This document shows positions 2,682-14,874 of a DNA stretch of 64,000 bases, piece after piece. The stretch is from an uncultured Paracoccaceae bacterium (GTDB taxonomy: Bacteria; Pseudomonadota; Alphaproteobacteria; Rhodobacterales; Rhodobacteraceae): contig CALDUK010000004.1 in NCBI GenBank assembly GCA_937924905.1, forward strand, positions 1-64,000. The letters run 5' to 3'. The first letter of the stretch is position 1. Every line of letters begins with the position of its first letter. The notes under the pieces are model-generated. The model searched no databases and was not told the origin of the DNA. It was given only the letters and a program-made list of their open reading frames with translations. Both the position numbers and the translations under genes were made by a program.

Positions 2682-4640
2682 TCAGCCGCGGTTCATACGG
2701 TTTTCTATAAGATCATCGACAACCTCGGGCTCGGCCAGGGTTGAGGTGTCCCCAAGCGCGCCAAAATCGTCTTCTGCAATCTTTCGCAAAATGCGCCGCA
2801 TGATCTTGCCCGACCGGGTCTTTGGCAATCCGGGCGCCCATTGGATCAGATCGGGTTTTGCAATTGGCCCAATCTCGGAACGGACCCAAGTTTCAAGCTC
2901 TTTGCGCAGGTCGTCCGAAGGGGTTTCGCCACCCATCAGCGTGACATAGGCATAGATACCCTGACCCTTGATGTCGTGTGGATAGCCGACAACCGCAGCC
3001 TCGGCGACTTTTTCATGGGCGACAAGCGCGCTTTCTACTTCGGCAGTGCCCATCCGGTGGCCGCTGACATTGATCACATCATCGACGCGTCCGGTGATCC
3101 AATAATACCCGTCTGCGTCGCGCCGACAGCCATCACCGGTGAAGTAGTAGTTCTTGTAGTCGGCGAAATATGTCTTTTCGAACCGTTCGTGATCGCCCCA
3201 AACCGTGCGCATCTGGCCTGGCCAACTGTCTTTTATGCAAAGAACACCTTCGGCTTCGGTTGTGGTGATTTCTTCGCCTGATTGCGGTTCAAGAACAACG
3301 GGTTGCACGCCAAAGAAGGGCAGGGTGCAGGACCCTGGCTTGGTGGGCGTGGCCCCCGGCAGCGGTGTCATCAGATGGCCACCTGTTTCGGTTTGCCACC
3401 ATGTATCGACAATCGGAACGTTCCCTTTGCCGACAATTTCGTTGTACCAGTTCCAGGCCTCGGGGTTTATCGGTTCGCCGACAGTGCCAAGCACCTTGAG
3501 GTCAGACAAGTCATACTTCGTGACAAACTCCGGGCCCTTGCCCATCAAGGCGCGGATCGCCGTCGGCGCGGTGTAGAACTGGTTCACCTTGTGCTTTTCG
3601 CAAACCGCCCAGAACCGGCCAGCATCGGGATAGGTCGGCACGCCTTCGAACATTACCGTGGTCGCACCATTGGCCAGCGGGCCGTAGACAATATAGCTAT
3701 GCCCGGTGACCCAGCCGACATCGGCGGTGCACCAAAAAATGTCGCCGTCGTGATAGTCGAACGTGTATTGATGTGTCATGGACGCGTAGACGATGTAGCC
3801 GCCCGTGCTGTGAACCACGCCTTTTGGCGCGCCGGTTGACCCCGAGGTGTACAGGATGAAAAGTGGGTCTTCCGCGGTCATCTCTTCTGCCGGGCAATCG
3901 TCCGAGACGTCTGCGCCGATCTCATGCAGCCAATGGTCACGGCCTGTGACCATGGCAACGTCGCCGCCGGTACGTTGGACGACCAGCATTTGCGTGTTTG
4001 TCGTGATCTTCTCAAAGGCCTTGTCGGCGTTGACCTTCAAGGGCGTGTTTCGCCCGCCGCGCGGAGCCTCGTCGGCCGTGATCACGACCTTTGCCTCTGA
4101 CCCGTCCACGCGCGCGGCAAGTGCATCGGGCGAAAAGCCTGCGAAGACAATGGAATGGATCGCCCCTATTCGGGCCGACGCCAACATGGCATAGGCGGCT
4201 TCAGGGATCATGGGCATATACAGGACAACACGGTCGCCTTTGCCGACGCCCATTTTCTTCAGGACATTGGCGAATTTCGACACTTCTGCATGCAGTTCTT
4301 TATAGGTGATGTGTCGGGCATTATCGTTCGGGTTGTCGGGTTCCCAGATGATGGCCGTCTGATTGCCGCGCGTGGCGATATGGCGGTCAATGCAGTTCAC
4401 CGAAACGTTCAGCGTGCCGTCTTCGAACCAGCGAATGCCCACGTTGCCAGGCGCAAAAGATGTGTTCTTCACCCGCGTATAGGGTTTGATCCAGTCGATG
4501 CGACGTCCGTGGTCGCCCCAAAAGGCCTCGGGATCTTCGATCGAAGCTTTGTACATCGCTTGATATTGCGTCTGATCGACATGCGCATTGTTGGCCATAT
4601 CTTTGTCAGGCCAATACTTCCCATCACGCTGGTCCAGCAT
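2682..4640 (-). CDS. acsA: Acetyl-CoA synthetase (AMP-forming)
   Basis: Protein of 652 residues, the usual length for acetyl-CoA synthetase. It converts acetate, ATP and CoA to acetyl-CoA via acetyl-AMP. The ANL-family P-loop is [11 protein letters not shown]. The acetate-pocket region TWWQTETGG and the C-terminal [11 protein letters not shown] are present; the Lys of the last motif is the residue acetylated in regulated Acs enzymes. The ATG at 4640 is used because residues before it in the longer frame are not conserved in character. It is the last gene of a leftward operon, 31 bases after an ABC ATPase gene, which links the importer to acyl-CoA formation. Propionate as an alternative substrate cannot be excluded. 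Confidence 0.96.
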
Positions 4641-4671
4641 GGTGTGTCCCCCTCGGTTCTTTTTGGTCGGC

Positions 4672-5427
4672 TTAGATCGCCAGGTATCTTGCGCGCAGCG
4701 CTTCGTCTTCCAGGACTTTTTGCGCGGAATCGTCATAAACCACTTGTCCGGTGTCCAGGATCACCGCGCGGTCGGCCAGTTTAAGTGCCGCGACGGCGTT
4801 TTGTTCGACAATGATCGTGGTGATGCCTTGGTCGCGAATATAGTTCAGAGTTTTCGCGATTTCCTGAACGATCACGGGGGCCAGCCCTTCGTAAGGTTCG
4901 TCCAGAAGCAACACTTTGATGTCACGGGCCAGCGCGCGGGCGATGGCAAGCATTTGCTGTTCGCCACCAGAAAGCGTCGAGCCATCCTGAGTGCGGCGTT
5001 CGCCCAGACGCGGGAAAAGTTCGTAGATGCGTTCAAGCGACCATCCAATGGGCGGGGCGATTTGTGCCAGCTTCAGGTTTTCCTCAACCGTCAGGCCCTG
5101 AATGATCCGTCGGTCTTCCGGAACCAAAGCGATGCCTTCTTGCGCCGCTTCATAGCTGGTCATTTTGTGCAAAGGCTTGTGGTCCAGCCAGATCTCGCCG
5201 TGGCGCAGCTCGGGGCTGTCCATGCGCGCAATGGTGCGCAAGGTGGTTGTCTTGCCCGCGCCGTTCCTGCCAAGAAGGGCAATGATTTCACCTTCGTGGA
5301 CGTTAAAGCTGACATCCTGAACGATATAGCTTTCACCGTAATAGGATTCGATATTCCAAATGCTCAGAAAGGTCGGGGCAGTGGCCGCGTTGTTGGCGCG
5401 TTTGTCGAAAGGTTTGTCGTCGAGCAT
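4672..5427 (-). CDS. ABC transporter ATP-binding protein, LivF type
   Basis: Protein of 251 residues. It has Walker [10 protein letters not shown], the signature LSGGEQQ and Walker B VLLLDEP, all intact. The C-terminal end fits the LivF side of branched-chain-amino-acid-type (HAAT) importers. The start at 5427 is preferred over an upstream one at 5448 because AGGAGG sits seven bases before it. It pairs with the LivG-type ATPase upstream to power the two permeases. Fusion to an operon ending in acs suggests a substrate other than leucine, perhaps a short-chain carboxylate or a compound yielding acetate; this is inference from context. Confidence 0.92.
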
Positions 5428-5469
5428 GTCATTTCCTCCTTCAGGCATACGAAAACACCCGTTTTCGCT

Positions 5470-5493
5470 GCGATCTTCTGCGCAGAAAATCGC
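5470..5493 (-). other. Intra-operon hairpin between the two ABC ATPase genes
   Basis: An outer stem GCGAT/ATCGC encloses the palindrome TTCTGCGCAGAA (5476-5487). It lies in the 69-base gap between the LivG-type and LivF-type genes. It may act in mRNA processing or as a protein site; the same core is part of the palindrome upstream of the Xre regulator at 10145-10163. Confidence 0.45.
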
Positions 5494-5496
5494 GCC

Positions 5497-6255
5497 TTAA
5501 TATGCGGCTTCGCCGAGATAGGCTTCCTGGACCTTAGGGTTGCCTTTGATGTTGTCCGGCGTGTCTTCGACCAGAGGCGTCCCTTGCGCCAGAACGGTGA
5601 TCCGTTCGGCCAGACTGAACACCACATGCATGTCATGTTCGATGATCGCCATGGTGATGTCGCGCTTTTCGTTGATCTCTTTCAACAGATCGATGGTGTT
5701 GTTTGTATCCGCGCGCGCCATGCCCGCGGTCGGTTCATCCAACAACAAAAGCCGAGGTTCCTGCACCAGACACATCGCCATTTCCAGCCGGCGCTTGTCC
5801 CCCCGCGACATCGCCGCCGAGCTCATGTCTTTCTTATCGGCCATATTGACGTCTTCAAGGGTGTGCAGGGCCCGGTCTATCAGTTCCTTCTCGTGGCTGA
5901 ACTGTTCAAAGGCATGCATCCGGAACGACCCGTCGCGCTTTGCAAAACATGGGATCATCATGTTTTCCAACACGCTTAAGTCGCCAAAGATCTCGGGCGT
6001 TTGAAACACGCGCGAGATGCCCATCTGGTTGATCTCGTGCGGCTTTCGTCCCAGCACGGATTGGCCGTCAAACATGACGCTGCCGGTGTCCGGGATCAGC
6101 TTGCCGACCAAACAATTCAGCAAGGTTGATTTGCCCGCACCGTTTGGCCCGATGATGGCGTGAACTGTGTTTTCATGGACTGAAAGGTTCACATCCGATA
6201 GGGCAGCCAGACCGCCGAACCGTTTACCGACACCTTTGACTTCAAGGATTGCCAT
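5497..6255 (-). CDS. ABC transporter ATP-binding protein, LivG type
   Basis: Protein of 252 residues. Walker A is GPNGAGKST and Walker B is LLLLDEP. The ABC signature is unusual: the expected LSGGEQ position reads MSRGDKRRLE, keeping the second Gly and the helix but losing the usual Ser-Gly pair. The longer loop between Q-loop and signature (QTPEIFGDLSVLENMM...) is typical of LivG over LivF. It lies between the LivM-type permease (13-base gap) and the LivF-type ATPase. Because the partner signature is canonical, one of the two ATP sites may be degenerate, as in asymmetric ABC transporters. Confidence 0.92.
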   Translation of the reverse strand: MAILEVKGVGKRFGGLAALSDVNLSVHENTVHAIIGPNGAGKSTLLNCLVGKLIPDTGSVMFDGQSVLGRKPHEINQMGISRVFQTPEIFGDLSVLENMMIPCFAKRDGSFRMHAFEQFSHEKELIDRALHTLEDVNMADKKDMSSAAMSRGDKRRLEMAMCLVQEPRLLLLDEPTAGMARADTNNTIDLLKEINEKRDITMAIIEHDMHVVFSLAERITVLAQGTPLVEDTPDNIKGNPKVQEAYLGEAAY

Positions 6256-6267
6256 TGGGTTTGCTCC

Positions 6268-7467
6268 TTATTCCGCGGGTGTCTTGGCGGCCGCGTCTGC
6301 GGCGCTATCGGTGCGCTTCTTGCGCCGGAAGATACGCGCAATGCGCTGTCCGCCTTCGACAAGGCCACCCGGCAAGAAAATGACAACCAGCATAAACACG
6401 ATGCCCAACGTCAGGTGCCAGCCTTTGCCGATGAACGGATGGATCAGATAGACTAGGGCGTTCTCCAGACCGTCCGGCAGGAAGGCAAACCACTGGTGAA
6501 GAATTGCGTCGTTGATCTTGGACAGGATGTTTTCCATGTACTTGATCAAGCCTGCGCCCAAAACCGGGCCGATCAATGTGCCGACACCGCCCAGAATGGC
6601 CATCAGAACAACTTCACCCGAGGCGGTCCAGAACATGCGTTCAGGCCCCACCTGGGTGTCCATCGCCACCATCAGACCACCGGCAAGACCGGCATACATG
6701 CCCGAGATGACGAACGCCGCCAGTGTATAAGGTTTGGAGTTCAGTCCGGTAAAGTTCATGCGCTGCTGGTTCGATTTCACAGCCCGCAGCATCATGCCAA
6801 AAGGCGACCTGAATATGCGGATCGACATGTAAAAGGCCAACAGCATGACGACAGCCGCGATATAATAGCCAGAGTTGAAGGTGAAAAGCCAACCGCCAAC
6901 TTCCATCTCATAGGACGCACGCATGTCCAAGCCAAAGAGATTGGCGCGTCCGATTTCGCCGTCGGCGAGGTTCGACAGAAGCGGCCGGTCGGTTGGCTTG
7001 ATCTGCAGGCCGGTTTCGCCGCCGGTGATCGGAGTCAGAACCGAATAGGCCAGCGCATAGCTCATCTGTGCGAAGGCCAGTGTCAGGATCGAGAAATAGA
7101 TGCCCGAACGGCGCAACGATATAAACCCGACGGCCAATGCAAACAGCCCTGCAAAGATCACTGACATGATGATCGCTGGAATGATGTTCAGCGACAGCAG
7201 TTTCATCATCCAGATGGCGGCATATGAGCCGACGCCCAGAAACGCCGCATGCCCGAAGGACAGATAACCGGTCAGACCGAACAGGATGTTGAACCCGATG
7301 GCGAAAATGCCAAAGATCACAAAGCGCTGCATCAGGTCTGGATAACCTGCATTGAACTGCGCCAGGTCCGAGCCTTCTGGGAACGGGTTCAGAATAAACG
7401 GCGCAAGAAGCGTCAGCACCGCGACGATGAGAAGTAGGGAGGTGTCTTTTGCGTTGAGACCAAACAT
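6268..7467 (-). CDS. ABC transporter permease, LivM type
   Basis: Protein of 399 residues with about ten hydrophobic segments, starting MFGLNAKD. The conserved HAAT permease block [21 protein letters not shown] lies at about residue 60-80, and [18 protein letters not shown] is the next family hallmark. Near residue 280 the coupling segment [20 protein letters not shown], which contacts the ATPase, is present. The C-terminus is charged and Ala-rich. It is encoded three bases after the LivH-type gene and forms the inner-membrane channel with it. Confidence 0.93.
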
Positions 7468-7470
7468 TTC

Positions 7471-8502
7471 TTATTCCTCCATCACGCCTTTGCGGCCCAT
7501 CAGGCCACGGGGACGGGTCAGTAGAATGACAATGGCGACCAGATAGATGATGATCTGGTTGATGCCAGGGATCAGGTCGATGACCACGCCCAGCGAGGCA
7601 AAGCTTTCAAGCACACCCAACAGGAAGCCAGCCAGCACCGCACCCGGCAGGGACCCCATCCCGCCCACAACAACGACGACGAAGCTGAGAACAAGGAAGT
7701 CCATGCCCATGTGGTAATTGGGTGAGTTGATCGGCGTATACATGACGCCCGCCAAGCCTGCGACACAGGCCGCGATGGCGAACATCACAGTGAAACGCTT
7801 GTCGATATTGATACCCAGCATGCCGACCGTTTCGCGGTCAGCCATGCCTGCGCGCACGACCATACCAAAAGTGGTGAACTGCAAAAACGCAAAGACGGCA
7901 GCTATGACGGACATCGCAAAGGCGAAATAGATCAGGCGCCAGTACGGATAGATGATTGTGTTGGGGTCCAGCCCGATGAACGCGCCAAAATCGAACGATC
8001 CGGTGAACGCCGGGGGCGCCGGTGTCGGTATGGGATTTGCGCCGTAGAACGCCTTGATGATTTCCTGAAGAACAATCGCAAGACCAAAGGTCACAAGGAT
8101 CTGGTCTGCATGAGGGCGTTTGTAAAAATGCTTGATCAGCCCGCGTTCCATAATCACGCCGACCAGCGCCATAACGGGAATAGCAAACAGGATGGCCAAA
8201 GGGACCGACCATTCAATGATGGTCTGACCGGCGGCGGGGCCGAACCAGTCGTGCACATAAGGCACATCAACTTTCAGAGGATTGCCAAGAAAATCCTTCT
8301 GCGTTTCATCCACAATCTGGTGGCTGAGGCTCAGCAAACGCTGCAACGTGACCGCACAGAATGCGCCGATCATGAAAAGCGCGCCATGCGCAAAGTTGAC
8401 GACACCCAGCGTGCCGAAAATCAAGGTCAGCCCCAGGGCGATCAGCGCGTAGGCGCTGCCCTTGTCGAGGCCGTTCAGGAATTGAAGGATGATGGCGTCC
8501 AT
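7471..8502 (-). CDS. ABC transporter permease, LivH type
   Basis: Protein of 343 residues. The start at 8502 (MDAIILQFLNGLDKGSAYAL) has AGGTGG just upstream and begins exactly where LivH-family proteins begin; a 27-residue extension in the open frame is rejected. Family blocks include ALGLTLIFGTLGVVNFAHGALFM near the N-terminus and VVVVGGMGSLPGAVLAGFLLG near the C-terminus. About eight to nine membrane spans. It contains a long polar loop after the second or third span (about residues 65-90, KDFLGNPLKVDVPYVHDWFG). This loop is longer than in amino-acid LivH proteins and could reflect a different substrate. Confidence 0.93.
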   Translation of the reverse strand: MDAIILQFLNGLDKGSAYALIALGLTLIFGTLGVVNFAHGALFMIGAFCAVTLQRLLSLSHQIVDETQKDFLGNPLKVDVPYVHDWFGPAAGQTIIEWSVPLAILFAIPVMALVGVIMERGLIKHFYKRPHADQILVTFGLAIVLQEIIKAFYGANPIPTPAPPAFTGSFDFGAFIGLDPNTIIYPYWRLIYFAFAMSVIAAVFAFLQFTTFGMVVRAGMADRETVGMLGINIDKRFTVMFAIAACVAGLAGVMYTPINSPNYHMGMDFLVLSFVVVVVGGMGSLPGAVLAGFLLGVLESFASLGVVIDLIPGINQIIIYLVAIVILLTRPRGLMGRKGVMEE

Positions 8503-8552
8503 GGTTTTCCCACCTGGTCTGGATTGGGTCCTGCACAGCATGCAGGCGGTTT

Positions 8553-8599
8553 CTGCCCTAGGGCAGTGGGGTGTGCCGGGCAAGCAAGCTTGCCCGGCA
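8553..8599 (-). other. Tandem hairpins between binding-protein and permease genes
   Basis: Two perfect palindromes sit in the 107-base gap: an 11-bp stem, TGCCGGGCAAG with CTTGCCCGGCA and a 4-base loop (8574-8599), and CTGCCCTAGGGCAG (8553-8566). Such structures after a binding-protein gene usually protect its mRNA or cause partial termination, so that binding protein exceeds permease. Confidence 0.6.
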
Positions 8600-8609
8600 A
8601 AGTGTCAGA

Positions 8610-9965
8610 TCAAGCGCCCGGGTTACACGACCCAAGCGTTGCTTCTGCACCGCCCATCTGTGGGTGGTCGGGCGCGTAAGTCACCTGAGACACCGGGGTC
8701 ACTTCGACGATTTCAAGAAGGTCGAATTCCGATGTCGGGTTTTCCTTGCCCCGCACGACCAGCACGTCTTTGAAGCACTGGTGGTCTGCACCGCGGTACA
8801 GCGTCTTGCCGTTGCCCAGACCGTCGAACTCGAAGTCTTCCAACGCTTCGGCAACTGCACATGGGTTGAACGACCCGGCGCGGTTCACGGCGTCTGCATA
8901 AAGCAGCGTCTGGCAATACACGGTGTGTGCGGCCTGCGACGGCGGGAAGCCGTACTTGGTGCCGAACGATTTTGTGAACGCCTGGCTGCCTGCGTCTGGC
9001 AGAGACCAGTGCCAGTTTGTCGAACCAAAGATGCCTTTAACGTTGGCACCTGCACCACGTGCCATCAGGCGCGAGTACAGCGGCACGACAATCTCAAAGT
9101 CTTTGCCGTTTGCGGTCTTCTCACGCAGGCCGAACTGAACAGCAGATGTCAGCGAGTTGATCATGTTGCCGCCGTAGTGGTTCAAAACCAGAACGTCCGC
9201 ATCTGTCTGCAGAACCGGTGCGATGTAGGACGAGAAGTCGGTCTGCGTCAGCGGCGTTTTCACGGCGTTGACGGTTTCCCAACCCATAGCCTCGGTCGCT
9301 TGAACAACGGCTTCTTCGGTTGTGTAACCCCAATTGTAGTCGGCGGTCAGGTGATAGGCTTTGCGGTCCTTGCCATAGTTGGCGGCCAGAACCGGTGCCA
9401 GTGCAGCACCCGACATGTACGAGTTAAAGAAGTGACGGAAGCCGTTGGCTTTCCGATCTTTACCGGTTGTGTCGTTCGAATGCGTCAGACCAGCCATGAA
9501 GATGATGCCGGCTTCTTGGCACAAGGCCTGCACAGCAACAGCCACACCCGACGAAGACCCACCGGTGATCATGATGGCACCGTCTTTTTCGATCATCGAC
9601 TTGGCCGATGCGCGGGCCGCGTCAGACTTGGTCTGCGTGTCGCCTGTGACGTATTCGACTTTCTTGCCGAGGATACCATTGCCTTCCAGCGTCTTCGACG
9701 AAAACGTCGGGATCATCCCGCCGTCGCCACCGCCGTTCAGATGTTCAACGGCCAGCTCATAAGCGCGCAGTTCGTCCGCGCCTTCGTCGGCATAGGGGCC
9801 GGTCTGCGGCACGTTGAAACCCAGTGTGACTGTGTCGCCCTGCGGTGCGTTCATGAAACCGGTGTGGCTGCCAGCCCAAACGGCACCAGTGAAAATCGTC
9901 GGCGTCGCAAGACCGGCGGCACCGGCTTTCAGGACGCGACGGCGCGTGAGATCGCTTTTTGACAT
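8610..9965 (-). CDS. Periplasmic substrate-binding protein of HAAT ABC transporter (Tat-exported)
   Basis: Protein of 451 residues. The N-terminus has a twin-arginine signal (TRRRVLKAGAAG followed by a hydrophobic stretch ending AVWA). The mature part is a type-I periplasmic binding fold of the LivK/AmiC group, starting TVTLGFNVPQTGPYADEG. The GGSSSGVAVAVQALCQEAG loop near residue 145 is where ligand carboxylates are bound in this family. Several Cys residues occur in the C-terminal half. GGGAGG stands about eight bases before the ATG. It is the first gene of the leftward operon ending in acs. The ligand is not identifiable; a carboxylate or amide is plausible from context. Confidence 0.9.
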   Translation of the reverse strand: MSKSDLTRRRVLKAGAAGLATPTIFTGAVWAGSHTGFMNAPQGDTVTLGFNVPQTGPYADEGADELRAYELAVEHLNGGGDGGMIPTFSSKTLEGNGILGKKVEYVTGDTQTKSDAARASAKSMIEKDGAIMITGGSSSGVAVAVQALCQEAGIIFMAGLTHSNDTTGKDRKANGFRHFFNSYMSGAALAPVLAANYGKDRKAYHLTADYNWGYTTEEAVVQATEAMGWETVNAVKTPLTQTDFSSYIAPVLQTDADVLVLNHYGGNMINSLTSAVQFGLREKTANGKDFEIVVPLYSRLMARGAGANVKGIFGSTNWHWSLPDAGSQAFTKSFGTKYGFPPSQAAHTVYCQTLLYADAVNRAGSFNPCAVAEALEDFEFDGLGNGKTLYRGADHQCFKDVLVVRGKENPTSEFDLLEIVEVTPVSQVTYAPDHPQMGGAEATLGSCNPGA

Positions 9966-10099: not shown

Positions 10100-10140
10100 T
10101 TTGTAAACTTTTGGACAAAAATTTTGTATATATTGTAAAT
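10100..10140. promoter_or_regulatory. AT-rich repeat region, candidate operator of the Xre/ScfR-like regulator
   Basis: In otherwise GC-rich DNA this segment holds TTTGTAAA (10100-10107), the dyad TTTTG-GA-CAAAA (10109-10120), ATTTTGTA and TTGTAAAT (10133-10140). Characterised ScfR regulators such as PccR bind paired TTTGCAAA-like boxes, and these elements resemble that with A/T changes. It lies between the divergent operons and could serve both. Confidence 0.45.
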
Positions 10141-10187: not shown

Positions 10188-11480
10188 TTGGCAACACGTC
10201 TTCTCATTGGCGCACGCATCCGTTCGTTTCGAATGGAAAAGGACATCAAGCAGGCCGAACTTGCGCAACGATGCAGCATTTCGGCAAGCTATCTTAACCT
10301 GATTGAGCACAATCGTCGAAAGATCGGCGGAGGGCTTTTGCTGAAAATCGCGCAGGCGCTTGACGTGGATCCGGCCATGTTCAGCGAAACGGCAGAAGTT
10401 GAACTGGCCCGGTCGCTGGAAGCCGCGGCCTCTGCCTTTTCATTCACTAACCCCGAACGCGACCGCGCGCAGGAACTGGCGGGCCGGTTCCCCGGTTGGG
10501 CGCGATTGATCTTTGCGCAACAGGCCGAACTGGGACGATTGCAACAAGTGGTCGAACGTCTGGGCGACCGGTTGACCCACGACCCGTTTCTGTCGGCGTC
10601 GATGCACAATGTCTTGTCCAGCGTGACGGCCATCCGTTCGGCCAGCGCCATTCTGGCGAATGGTGGCGAAATCGAACCGGAATGGGAAGCGCGGTTTCAT
10701 CGCAATATCTTCGAAGACAGTCAGCGTTTAACCGACGCGACCGAAACGCTTGTGCGGTATCTCGACAATGAGAATGGCCCTGCCGAAGGCAGCCTGCCGC
10801 AGGACGAGCTTGACGCCTGGCTGGCCAATCAAGGATGGCGGATTGAGGCTTTGGAGCGCGAACCTGCTGCGCAACTGGACACCATCCTAGACGCCGCCGA
10901 CGATCTTACGACCGCCGCCGCGCGCGACATCGCCGCCAGCTTTTTGCGGCGGTACCAGGATGATGTGCGGCTTTTGCCTGAAGCCTCTCTTTTAAGCGCG
11001 TTGTCAGAAACGCAGGATGCGCTGCAACTGGCTGCAAATTTTGCCTTGCCGCTTCCCGTCATCTTTCGGCGCCTGGCAACTGTTTCCAAAGACAGTCTGC
11101 CCGAGGGCAATCCCTTTGGACTGGTCGCCTGCGACGGGTCAGGCACATTGACAGTGCGCAAGCCGCTGCCTGAATTCACCCTGCCGCGCTATGGCGCGTG
11201 CTGCCCGTTTTGGCCACTGTTTCAATCGCTTCAAACCCCGCTTACGCCCGTGATGCAGATCGTTGCCCTAAGCGGACAGGACAAAGCCGATTTTCGCACA
11301 ATCGCATTTGCGGAAAAGTCATACCCACTTGGCTGGGATGGTCCGGCGACATTGCAAGCCTGGATGTTATTCCAACCCGTGATCGAACCAGATGCGTCGC
11401 GCTTGCGGGTCGGCATATCTTGCCGGGTCTGTGCCGAGCAAAACTGTGTCGCGCGGCGCGAACCGTCCGTCTTTGCCTGA
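10188..11480 (+). CDS. Xre-family ScfR-like transcriptional regulator with embedded DHp-like domain
   Basis: Protein of 430 residues from a TTG start, needed to keep the first helix of the HTH; AGGG lies seven bases before it. Residues 1-65 are a Cro/C1-type HTH (KQAELAQRCSISASYLNLIE). Residues about 275-425 match the ScfR C-terminal domain (DUF2083), with CCPFWPLFQSL and the terminal CRVCAEQNC. Typical ScfR proteins carry an IrrE-like peptidase domain with HExxH in the middle; none is seen here. Instead residues 131-197 align gap-free with the histidine-kinase DHp domain encoded downstream, keeping His140. It heads an operon with a receiver, a 2-TM protein and a kinase, and is divergent from the acs operon, which it probably controls in response to an acyl-CoA. 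Confidence 0.85.
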   Translation: MATRLLIGARIRSFRMEKDIKQAELAQRCSISASYLNLIEHNRRKIGGGLLLKIAQALDVDPAMFSETAEVELARSLEAAASAFSFTNPERDRAQELAGRFPGWARLIFAQQAELGRLQQVVERLGDRLTHDPFLSASMHNVLSSVTAIRSASAILANGGEIEPEWEARFHRNIFEDSQRLTDATETLVRYLDNENGPAEGSLPQDELDAWLANQGWRIEALEREPAAQLDTILDAADDLTTAAARDIAASFLRRYQDDVRLLPEASLLSALSETQDALQLAANFALPLPVIFRRLATVSKDSLPEGNPFGLVACDGSGTLTVRKPLPEFTLPRYGACCPFWPLFQSLQTPLTPVMQIVALSGQDKADFRTIAFAEKSYPLGWDGPATLQAWMLFQPVIEPDASRLRVGISCRVCAEQNCVARREPSVFA

Positions 11481-11561: not shown

Positions 11562-11930
11562 GTGACAAACAAACGTGTCCTTTTGATCGAGGACGAACCT
11601 AACATCATCGAAGCCATTCGCTTCATTCTGTCCAGGGATGGTTGGCGGGTCGATACCCATTCCGATGGCAGCACAGCGCTGGACGCTATACGGGCGCGTG
11701 TGCCTGATCTCGTGATCCTTGATGTCATGCTTCCCAACAAGTCTGGCTATGACATTCTTTGCGAACTTCGGGAAACCACCGATGTGCAAGACGTGCCGGT
11801 CTTGATGCTGACGGCGCGCGGCCAAAAGAAAGACCGCGAACTGGCCGAACGTCTGGGGGTTTCCAAATTCATGACAAAACCGTTTTCAAACGGTGAAATC
11901 CTGTCGACCGTGCGCGAGCTGGCCGGTTAA
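11562..11930 (+). CDS. Stand-alone response-regulator receiver protein
   Basis: Protein of 122 residues, a receiver domain and nothing else. The acidic pair ED (residues 10-11), phospho-acceptor Asp54 (VILDVMLP), Thr84 and Lys106 (KPF) are all present, so it should be phosphorylatable. The GTG at 11562 is chosen because GGAGGGG precedes it by seven to eight bases; the longer frame has no such site. It lacks any DNA-binding output domain, unlike CrbR-type partners of SSS-STAC kinases, so it must act by protein contact or as a phosphorelay intermediate. Its stop overlaps the next start (TAATG). The neighbouring kinase is the likely phosphodonor. Confidence 0.93.
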   Translation: MTNKRVLLIEDEPNIIEAIRFILSRDGWRVDTHSDGSTALDAIRARVPDLVILDVMLPNKSGYDILCELRETTDVQDVPVLMLTARGQKKDRELAERLGVSKFMTKPFSNGEILSTVRELAG

Positions 11931-12202
11931 TGGAAAAACCGGGCCAACCCCTGTTTCTTGCGCGCGCCAGCTATCGCAGACGCCGGGTTGCCGACGCCGC
12001 GCGTCTGGTGCCGTTCTTTGGGGTGATCCTTTTGTTGCTGCCGGGGCTTTGGACGACGACAGCAGGCTCGATGATCTATATCTTCACTGTCTGGGCCGTC
12101 TTGATCCTTGCCATCGGCGCGCTGTCCAGCCGGTTGCGCGGCATCACCGAGGCTGACCAAGAAGCCTCCGAGCCGCGGCGTGATCGCCCCCCGGACGGCT
12201 GA
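11930..12202 (+). CDS. Small membrane protein with two predicted helices, ahead of the SSS kinase
   Basis: Protein of 90 residues. A basic N-terminus (ARASYRRRRVADAARL) is followed by two hydrophobic segments (about residues 24-43 and 47-66), then a charged tail rich in Glu, Arg and Pro. Both termini are predicted cytoplasmic. I do not recognise the family. The position is suggestive: small two-helix proteins (the DUF485/YjcH type) are encoded directly before SSS transporters such as ActP, and this gene is six bases before an SSS-domain kinase. It may assemble with that membrane domain. Translational coupling is likely, since its ATG overlaps the receiver's stop. Confidence 0.75.
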   Translation: MEKPGQPLFLARASYRRRRVADAARLVPFFGVILLLLPGLWTTTAGSMIYIFTVWAVLILAIGALSSRLRGITEADQEASEPRRDRPPDG

Positions 12203-12207
12203 CTGGC

Positions 12208-14874
12208 ATGTCGTTTAACCTTCTCGCAACGATCTGTCTGGCCTATGTGGCTGTTCTGTTTGCCTTTGCCTTTTGGGCCGATCAGCGGGCGGCGTCCGGG
12301 CGCGTTGGCTGGCTGGCTTCGCCTTTGATCTACACACTTTCGTTGTCGATCTATTGCACAGCTTGGACGTTCTATGGTGCTGTTGGCTATGCCGCGCGGT
12401 CGGGCATGGAATTTGTCACAATCTATCTGGGTCCAACACTGGTGATGGTCGGCTGGTGGGTTTTGCTGCGCCGTCTGGTTCGGATCGGGCGGTCACAACG
12501 TATCACGTCGATCGCGGACTTCATCTCGTCGCGCTATGGCAAGTCGAACATGCTGGGGGTTCTTGTGACCTTGCTCGCGGTGGTGGGCACCACGCCTTAC
12601 ATCGCGCTGCAATTGCAATCGGTCACACTAAGCTTCGACGTCTTTTCGTCGACACCGGGCGATAATCTACGCGAGATCGCCTTTATCGTGGCTATCGGAT
12701 TGGCCGCTTTTACGATTGTGTTCGGCACACGCAATCTGGATGTGAACGCCCATCACCACGGGGTTGTCATTGCCATTGCAGTCGAAGCGATTGTCAAACT
12801 GGTTGCTCTTCTCGCGGTCGGCATATTCGTGGTCTTCATGCTGGCAGGTGGCCCTGGGCCAATGCTGGATGTCATCGCGGCGTCACCGATTGCAGAGCAG
12901 ACCATCCAACCCGAACGCTGGACGGTGTTGATCGGTTTGTCAGCCATGGCGTTCCTGTGCTTGCCCCGCATGTTTCAGGTCATGGTGGTCGAAAATTCGG
13001 ACGAACGGCACCTGGCAACGGCAAGCTGGGCGTTTCCGCTGTATCTCTTTTTGATGAGCCTTTTTGTGCTGCCCATCGCGGCCGTTGGTTTGAATGTTCT
13101 GCCAGACGGGGCCAATCCTGACCTGTTCGTGCTGACGTTGCCGCTTGAATTTGATCGCGACATGTTGGCCATGCTGGCGTTTCTTGGCGGGTTCTCGTCC
13201 GCCACATCAATGGTCATTGTCGCCGCCTTGGCCGTGTCCACCATGGTCTCAAACCACATCGTCATGCCGATCTGGCTTAGTCGCCAACAAGGCGGCGCGA
13301 CAGTGTCAGGCGATGTGCGCAAGGTCGTAATGGTCTCGCGGCGCATTTCGATCGCGGCGTTGCTGGCGCTTGGATATCTCTATTTCGTCTATTCCGGCGG
13401 AAGCGGTGCGCTGGCGGCCATTGGCCTGATCGCGTTCACCGGCATGGCGCAGGTCATCCCGGCCTTGATCGGCGGATTGTTCTGGCGGGGTGGTACACGC
13501 GTCGGGGCCGCGGCAGGAATTGGGGTCGGCTTTGCCGTTTGGCTTTGGTGTTCGTTCCTGCCCAGCTTCGGCGATGCCAGCCTGATCCCGGCCAGCGTTT
13601 TCGCCAACGGGCCTTTTGGACTGAGCTTTCTGCGGCCTCAGGCGCTGTTTGGGATTGAAGGGCTTGATCCCTTGGTGCATGCGGTTTTCTGGTCGCTTCT
13701 TCTGAACACGGTCGCGTTCTGCTTCTTTTCGCTGCTCAGCTTTCCGTCGCCACTGGAACGCTTGCAGGGCGCGGCTTATGTCAATGTCTTCCGTTATACG
13801 GAAACGGCCCCCGGATGGTCAGGCGGCGGGGCCGAGGCGGAAGACCTTTTGGTCATGTCGCAGCGCATTCTTGGGGCCGGCGAAGCGCAAACGCTGTTCA
13901 CCGGCGAGGCTCAGGCACAGGGCAAGGGCGGGTATCTGCCCGATGTGACGCCACCTTTTCTGGAACGGCTTGAGCGCGAGTTGGCCGGGTCAGTGGGCGC
14001 GGCCACGGCGCATGCAATGCTGATGCAGATCACAGGTGGTGTGTCTGTATCGGTGGAAGACCTGATGCGCGTGGCGGACGAGGCGCAGCAAATACTTGAA
14101 TATTCCAATCAGCTTGAAGCCAAAAGTCAGGAGCTTGGCCGCACCGCAAGACAATTGCAGGAAGCCAATGAAAAGCTTGTCGCACTGTCAGTGCAGAAAG
14201 ACGGGTTTCTCAGTCAGATCAGCCACGAATTGCGCACGCCCATGACCTCGATCCGGTCGTTCAGCGAAATCCTGATGCAGGGCGAGAATATGTCGCCCGA
14301 AGACCGCGCGCGCTATAGCCAGATTATCCACGATGAAACCATCCGCCTGACCCGGCTTTTGGACGACCTTCTGGATCTCAGCGTGTTGGAAAACGGACAG
14401 GTGACACTGAACTATTCCGAAGTCACGCTTGGAACGGTCCTTGACCGTGCAGTTGACGCCATCGCACATTCATCTGCCGGTATTCAGATCGTCCGGGATC
14501 TGCAAAGCGAGGATATCCCGCTGCATACCGACGGGGATCGTTTGGCGCAGGTGTTCATCAACCTGATTTCCAACGCACAAAAGTACTGTACCGTTGACAA
14601 CCCCAGCCTAAGAATTGTTGTCGGACAAGAAGCCGGGCGTCCGGTGGTGGATTTTGTCGACAACGGGCACGGCATTGATACCGATGTGCAAAGCGTGATT
14701 TTCGAGAAATTCTCACGCGGGTCAGACCCCCGCGCAGCCGGTGGTGCGGGGTTGGGGCTGGCCATTTGTCGCGAAGTCATGAAGCGTCTCGGCGGCGGCA
14801 TTGCCTATCTGCCGGGGCAGGGCGGTGCGGCGTTTCGCGTGACTTTGCCCCGGACGCAGGCGGTTGCCGCTTAA
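12208..14874 (+). CDS. Sensor histidine kinase with sodium:solute symporter and STAC domains (CrbS-like)
   Basis: Protein of 888 residues. Residues about 1-510 form a PutP/SLC5-type membrane domain of 12-13 helices. Residues about 545-640 match a STAC linker (DLLVMSQRILG..., LERELAGSVGAATAHAMLM). A coiled coil then leads to DHp with SQISHELRTPMTSI (His673). The ATPase domain has N box NLISNAQKY, G1 DNGHGI, F box FEKFSRG and G2 GAGLGLAI. There is no PAS domain and no C-terminal receiver. SSS-STAC kinases include CbrA (histidine) and CrbS (acetate, controlling acs). Nearness to acs favours a CrbS-like role in sensing acetate or its flux, which is inference. Confidence 0.93.
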   Translation: MSFNLLATICLAYVAVLFAFAFWADQRAASGRVGWLASPLIYTLSLSIYCTAWTFYGAVGYAARSGMEFVTIYLGPTLVMVGWWVLLRRLVRIGRSQRITSIADFISSRYGKSNMLGVLVTLLAVVGTTPYIALQLQSVTLSFDVFSSTPGDNLREIAFIVAIGLAAFTIVFGTRNLDVNAHHHGVVIAIAVEAIVKLVALLAVGIFVVFMLAGGPGPMLDVIAASPIAEQTIQPERWTVLIGLSAMAFLCLPRMFQVMVVENSDERHLATASWAFPLYLFLMSLFVLPIAAVGLNVLPDGANPDLFVLTLPLEFDRDMLAMLAFLGGFSSATSMVIVAALAVSTMVSNHIVMPIWLSRQQGGATVSGDVRKVVMVSRRISIAALLALGYLYFVYSGGSGALAAIGLIAFTGMAQVIPALIGGLFWRGGTRVGAAAGIGVGFAVWLWCSFLPSFGDASLIPASVFANGPFGLSFLRPQALFGIEGLDPLVHAVFWSLLLNTVAFCFFSLLSFPSPLERLQGAAYVNVFRYTETAPGWSGGGAEAEDLLVMSQRILGAGEAQTLFTGEAQAQGKGGYLPDVTPPFLERLERELAGSVGAATAHAMLMQITGGVSVSVEDLMRVADEAQQILEYSNQLEAKSQELGRTARQLQEANEKLVALSVQKDGFLSQISHELRTPMTSIRSFSEILMQGENMSPEDRARYSQIIHDETIRLTRLLDDLLDLSVLENGQVTLNYSEVTLGTVLDRAVDAIAHSSAGIQIVRDLQSEDIPLHTDGDRLAQVFINLISNAQKYCTVDNPSLRIVVGQEAGRPVVDFVDNGHGIDTDVQSVIFEKFSRGSDPRAAGGAGLGLAICREVMKRLGGGIAYLPGQGGAAFRVTLPRTQAVAA

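Follow-up and report, generated by a model that had tools for sequence, protein, structure and literature searches.

The window analysed here is a stretch of 64,000 nucleotides from an uncultured Paracoccaceae bacterium. It carries a gene for an ScfR-family regulator with an embedded domain resembling the DHp domain of histidine kinases. Downstream of the regulator gene and on the same strand are genes encoding a stand-alone receiver, a small membrane protein and a SLC5-type sensor kinase. Divergent to the regulator lies an operon encoding a branched-chain-type ABC transporter and an acetate-CoA ligase (acs), and a putative operator is found between the two transcription units (Table 1).

Table 1. 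Features of the regulator locus (positions in the window)
Feature	Position	Strand	Basis or remark
Divergent operon	2682..9965	-	Probable target of the regulator
Acetate-CoA ligase (acs)	2682-4736	-	NCBIfam TIGR02188 above cut-off
Branched-chain-type ABC transporter	4672-8583	-	
Substrate-binding protein	8610-9965	-	
Putative regulator operator, TTGTAAA-N25-TTGTAAA direct repeat	10101..10139	+	Boxes 10101-10107 and 10133-10139
ScfR-family regulator with embedded DHp	10188..11480	+	430 aa, TTG start; HTH_3 and ScfRs above Pfam cut-offs
HTH_3 (Xre-type) DNA-binding domain, residues 11-63	10218..10376	+	Pfam PF01381, E 1.5e-10
Long helix running into the DHp, residues 102-131 (signalling-helix position)	10491..10580	+	AlphaFold2
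DHp-like domain, residues 131-197; predicted helices 133-157 and 164-193	10578..10778	+	Alignment, profiles, AlphaFold2
His140 codon, phospho-acceptor position	10605..10607	+	His in 119/121 orthologues
Remnant of IrrE-like/DIII region, residues 232-300, aligns to MtPrpR	10881..11087	+	PDB 6cyj match over 232-426
ScfRs C-terminal domain, residues 306-428	11103..11471	+	Pfam PF09856, E 1.4e-10
Stand-alone receiver, no output domain	11562..11930	+	122 aa; Response_reg, E 7e-26
Receiver Asp54 codon	11721-11723	+	
Small membrane protein	11930..12202	+	90 aa; overlaps receiver stop codon; kinase starts 5 bases on
SLC5-type sensor kinase	12208..14874	+	888 aa; transporter-like N-terminus, HisKA 664-730 (His673), HATPase 775-883
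Kinase HisKA/DHp	14197..14397	+	Nearest relative of the regulator DHp among the genome's 13 HisKA kinases

The domains at the two ends of the regulator place it in the ScfR family. HTH_3 and ScfRs are both matched in 97 of 97 aligned regulator members (E <= 0.01), and in the window regulator Cys339 together with C412-X2-C415-X4-C420 reproduces the arrangement of [4Fe4S] ligands in PrpR, a single Cys and a C-X2-C-X4-C motif (PMC6765138). C339, C412 and C415 are invariant across the 97 alignment rows and C420 is kept in at least 90% of them; the cluster itself has not been shown. The best PDB match of the full regulator model is M. tuberculosis PrpR, the solved ScfR (E 3e-10). Pfam found no M78 (IrrE-like) domain in the window regulator, and matched it in 6 of the 97 members and in the long forms scanned. 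As PrpR itself lacks the protease residues (PMC6765138), we take this absence to be a lineage loss within the ScfR family and not an argument against membership. Judged by its sequence, the window protein is an ScfR-family member, whose binding of short-chain acyl-CoA is inferred without ligand data. It represents the short Rhodobacteraceae form, in which the IrrE-like domain is reduced relative to long orthologues. Orthologues of the regulator were found in 260 of 296 sampled family genomes, about one genome per genus.

The first-pass annotation had aligned regulator residues 131-197 without gaps to kinase residues 664-730, with 25 of 67 positions identical, and a recount gave exactly the same figures. 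It read this segment as a HisKA/DHp domain akin to that of the kinase in its own operon, a reading to be given up if profile comparison yielded no HisKA/DHp signal above background. In the profile check it proposed, Pfam HisKA found no match in the window regulator alone at E <= 10, and detects the domain in only 4 of 97 regulator members, but comparison of the family profiles of regulator segment and kinase by hhalign gave a clear HisKA signal (98% probability, E 2.6e-13). The controls (the kinase with shuffled columns, the receiver, and the neighbouring stretch of the regulator) gave probabilities of 0.2-0.3%. Four relatives (L036, L196, L197 and L206) pass the curated Pfam HisKA cut-off, scoring 31.9-38.7 against the required 26.9 bits, and relatives from other families are read by Pfam as HTH_3-HisKA-M78-ScfRs proteins. 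NCBIfam CreC, in turn, matches residues 110-192 of the window regulator (E 6.7e-5).

A search of genomes with the regulator alone retrieves the operon kinase via residues 93-198 (E 8.8e-7). A segment profile built from 121 orthologues was also compared with the ORFs surrounding every HisKA kinase of the window's genome (n=13). The operon kinase reached 42 bits (E 1.2e-12) and the second-ranked kinase only 13.9 bits, with no match in the classical ScfR paralogue of that genome. The proposed kinship with the operon kinase is thus borne out, the kinase ranking first among those of its genome and the trees agreeing. A chance likeness of two amphipathic helical hairpins, for which one could cite the missing Pfam HisKA match in the window protein alone and the many unrelated helix bundles that the DHp model on its own matches, is contradicted by the same-genome profile ranking, hhalign and Pfam HisKA in relatives, and we regard such a coiled-coil similarity as ruled out for practical purposes.

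AlphaFold2, run on a 97-row alignment (mean pLDDT 91.8), predicts the long helix and, after it, the two-helix DHp hairpin, with His140 in helix 1 (Table 1). When the DHp fragment was searched against known structures, LvrB, HK853 and DivL were among the 50 best matches, none of the matches having an E-value below 0.06; solved kinase chains gave E 0.09 or worse, and VIA-align placed unrelated bundles level with kinases. Because the fragment E-values are not significant and the second aligner scores unrelated bundles equally, these matches are only compatible with the DHp identity and do not prove it. That identity is upheld by the profile, structure-prediction and tree evidence combined.

The DHp does not stand at the place of the IrrE-like domain, as had been suggested. 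The insertion, of about 60 residues, lies between a helical linker (LSDRLSQD) and an SPxxEVxDF...NHFPxLE stretch, N-terminal of the IrrE-like domain. Replacement of one domain by the other is ruled out, given that classical ScfRs have 13-27 residues here against 78-82 in DHp carriers, and that long orthologues carry both domains. In a tree of the remaining protein (core ScfR; 34 carriers against 24 classical proteins) the DHp carriers form one clade with support 99/99. A tree of the DHp itself, limited by its 66 columns, likewise unites the regulator DHps in one clade (97/86), with those of SLC5 kinases as the nearest neighbours. Outside the class, in a 398-genome phylum sample, matches begin past the DHp or within its end, like classical ScfRs, and the insertion hence appears to be alphaproteobacterial, although rare cases elsewhere are not excluded. 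The DHp insertion was gained once, apparently in Alphaproteobacteria, and much of the IrrE-like domain subsequently disappeared from the short form found in Rhodobacteraceae.

Free variation of His140 among orthologues would have refuted the first-pass reading, and it is not seen: the position is His in 119 of 121 orthologues and Tyr in the other two. Asp132, Ile155, Leu156 and Phe170 are invariant across the same 121 aligned regulators. The loss of the acidic residue after the His, also claimed from the window alone, is true of the window protein (Asn141) but atypical of its family, where position +1 is acidic in 104 of 121 (Glu 87, Asp 17; Asn 6). At position +4, 103 have Ser and 17 have Thr, together 120 of the 121. 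Among the distinct DHp regulators from a class-level search, 17 of 24 retain the His; all 17 His-retaining proteins have Thr, Asn or Ser at +4, and only 2 are acidic at +1. In tested HisKA proteins only autokinase activity depends on an acidic residue at +1, and only phosphatase activity on a Thr/Asn at +4 (PMC3510030). A free +1 with a kept +4 therefore fits a phosphotransfer or phosphatase module whose partner is a receiver rather than a CA domain. Among the families found in the regulator members scanned, HATPase was absent. With Asn141 and no HATPase, the window regulator meets neither of the marks of a functional HisKA kinase, the acidic +1 residue and the CA/HATPase domain.

In a few lineages (f41 with G662; f117; L034; L109) the His has given way to Phe, Gln or Tyr. 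L034 and L109 have Tyr, with receiver and kinase still adjacent, and the genomes of His-less lineages still hold kinase and receiver. Phosphotransfer is not essential everywhere, since these lineages keep the DHp, the receiver and the kinase. We also considered whether loss of the His is coupled to loss of kinase and receiver; this is ruled out, as His-less clades keep the kinase and the stand-alone receiver elsewhere in the genome and only adjacency is gone. In the clade of L184/L211 (G518) and L187 (G414), whose DHp-ScfR has Gln at the His position, the matched stretch is reported to contain one internal stop codon (TAA or TAG).

The genes downstream of the regulator form a recurrent set. 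Among the 121 loci the receiver is adjacent in 114 and a full-length kinase in 108, several of the others being cut by contig ends, and D54, K106, E10 and D11 of the receiver are kept in 114 of 114. The same gene set recurs in other families, mostly in the order regulator-receiver-SLC5 kinase, and where the regulator is located elsewhere the kinase still adjoins a receiver without output domain in the loci examined. The N-terminal half of the kinase matches PDB 10ed_A, a 'histidine kinase' (E 4e-66) that we take to be a SLC5-type kinase such as CbrA; Pfam found no transporter match in the kinase N-terminus and no receiver domain in the kinase. By the 10ed_A match and Pfam, the operon kinase meets the definition of a CrbS-type protein, a SLC5 transporter domain with HisKA-HATPase. 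The small membrane protein, detected in most orthologous operons, has no Pfam family above cut-off and no sequence match to a solved structure. It is placed like CbrX, a small peptide that binds the SLC5 domain of CbrA (PMC13022988).

Presence of the kinase follows presence of the regulator. Among family genomes without the regulator that are at least 90% complete (n=14), the kinase is absent from 13, against 0 of 14 genomes with the regulator (Fisher p 7e-7, uncorrected for phylogeny). The exception is G027 (L366, G027:C15:88000-97500), where a divergent SLC5 kinase is followed by a stand-alone receiver and the genome has no DHp-ScfR.

Upstream of the regulator, the motif TTGTAAA is enriched: it occurs in the 220 bases before the gene at 83 of 121 loci, where shuffles give about 5. 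Two boxes at a fixed spacing of 32 bp, with up to one mismatch, are present at 57 of the 121 loci, the next spacing reaching 6, and the repeat in the window is the sole exact match in its genome. A pair of near-identical boxes with a spacer is typical of ScfR sites (PMC10370305). Close to the classical ScfR (L164, G000:C6:106162-106201) there is a TTGCAAA direct repeat whose boxes are likewise spaced at 32 bp, possibly the operator of that paralogue; TTGTACA-N25-TTGTACA recurs many times per genome in G004 and G240. In 63 of 80 named genomes the regulator is flanked by all five ABC-transporter genes in divergent orientation, and acs was also seen in 29 of those 63, the 6-kb flank often stopping short of it. 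Antisense to the substrate-binding protein gene runs a 463-aa open frame (8571-9962, plus strand), probably a by-product of codon bias. We propose that the regulator provides DNA-binding control of acetate-type metabolism in marine and soil alphaproteobacteria, with the divergent operon as its probable target, inferred without binding data.

The DHp homology, the kept His, the single origin, the conserved gene set and the two-box upstream site are thus established at the level of sequence comparison. How these parts work together is a matter of inference. In the mechanism that we consider probable, though no biochemical data support it, a signal would pass from kinase to receiver to the regulator DHp, through transfer of phosphate to His140 or through docking, and alter DNA binding, with acyl-CoA as an additional input. 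The membrane kinase would sense its substrate and phosphorylate the stand-alone receiver on Asp54. The receiver, having no output domain of its own, would dock on the regulator DHp, a paralogue of the docking surface of the kinase itself, and in most lineages the phosphoryl group would go from the receiver to His140. A change in the DHp, presumed to be dimeric, and in the preceding helix would alter the attached HTH and hence the action of the regulator at the TTTGTAAA repeats, so that both the regulator gene and the divergent operon for transporter and acetate-CoA ligase would come under its control. The acyl-CoA input may be added by the ScfRs domain at the C-terminus, which retains its iron-sulphur ligands, and one switch would then join an outside signal with an inside signal. 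A first test for covariation at the interface of regulator DHp and receiver looked positive and became marginal with entropy-matched nulls; the kinase-receiver positive control gave nothing, and we accordingly give the covariation no weight.

The DHp might instead be only a docking site that reads receiver phosphorylation, as DivL reads DivK~P, with no phosphate passing to His140. DivL provides a precedent, its DHp binding a phosphorylated receiver with Tyr replacing the His (PMC4211667), and the lineages with Phe, Gln or Tyr at this position retain the DHp, the Tyr proteins L034 and L109 still adjoining receiver and kinase. Docking would nevertheless not require a His kept in 119 of 121 proteins of the main set and in 17 of 24 at class level, nor the likewise kept Thr/Ser/Asn at +4. 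We consider a docking-only role unlikely overall, yet the loss of the His in some lineages makes it a serious alternative.

It is improbable, in our estimate, that the DHp strips phosphate from the receiver as a phosphatase or sink, tuning the kinase pathway while DNA binding is set by acyl-CoA alone. The +4 Thr/Asn/Ser is indeed as well conserved as His140, but in Rhodobacteraceae it is mostly Ser, whereas the residues tested were Thr and Asn, and this role leaves the stand-alone receiver without evident output. We give very little credence to a DHp that merely dimerises the regulator, or pairs with the kinase DHp and so tethers the regulator at the membrane, with no role for the receiver: DHp domains do dimerise and the operon kinase has the closest DHp, but the highly conserved His, the +4 residue and the constant stand-alone receiver would all remain unexplained.

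The regulator and its locus can be compared with several known systems. With the ScfR family (RamB, PccR, MccR/PrpR) the regulator shares the Xre-type HTH, the ScfRs domain with [4Fe4S] cysteines, the putative two-box operator and, by inference, the control of acetate/propionate metabolism. It differs in the DHp of about 60 residues between HTH linker and IrrE-like domain and in being co-encoded with a kinase and a receiver, and the window form lacks much of the IrrE-like domain. A Paracoccus denitrificans ScfR homologue adjoins a two-component system, according to the part of the report available, which mentions no kinase domain in the homologues Pden_1785 and Pden_2985 (PMC10370305). The SLC5/STAC kinase systems CrbS/CrbR and CbrA/CbrB resemble the locus in having a SLC5-type kinase beside acetate metabolism genes and a short upstream ORF placed like CbrX. 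CrbR and CbrB are, however, response regulators with their own DNA-binding output, whereas the window has a bare receiver and a DHp on the DNA-binding protein.

ChpT and Spo0B are DHp-type histidine phosphotransfer modules that accept phosphate from a receiver, a function only inferred for the regulator. They are free relay proteins in which the DHp is followed by a degenerate CA domain, while the regulator DHp sits in a DNA-binding protein with no CA and leads into the ScfR linker and the IrrE-like region. The pseudo-kinase DivL likewise has a DHp that reads a stand-alone receiver, again an inference in the regulator, where Tyr variants also occur. The target of DivL is another kinase, and DivL lacks an HTH but retains CA and PAS; its non-phosphorylatable residue at the His position is not the rule among the regulators, most of which keep the His, the window protein included. 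Each of the parts is known (ScfR regulators, SLC5/STAC kinases, ChpT/Spo0B, DivL). A literature search, which did not cover subscription papers, found no ScfR or Xre regulator described as containing a DHp, nor the combination of a DNA-binding regulator with a DHp copied from the kinase type encoded alongside.

The usual end point of a two-component system is a receiver joined to a DNA-binding or other output. A regulator that carries a DHp suggests a two-component signal wired 'backwards' into a gene switch, through a histidine domain and not an aspartate receiver, and there is a substantial chance that it represents a new output logic. We put forward only tentatively, at somewhat less than an even chance, the wider proposal that a two-component pathway ending in a DHp histidine on a transcription factor (His to Asp to His), together with an acyl-CoA sensor, is a widespread alphaproteobacterial logic that arose a single time, when the docking domain of the cognate type of kinase was copied into the regulator. 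The evolutionary step itself is clear, a single insertion with the His later lost in a few lineages. If signalling from receiver to DHp proves true, it would add an output type missed by domain-based annotation and would explain the otherwise output-less kinase/receiver pair across many alphaproteobacterial families. It would also offer a testable case of a regulator that combines a transceptor signal from outside the cell with an acyl-CoA signal from inside.
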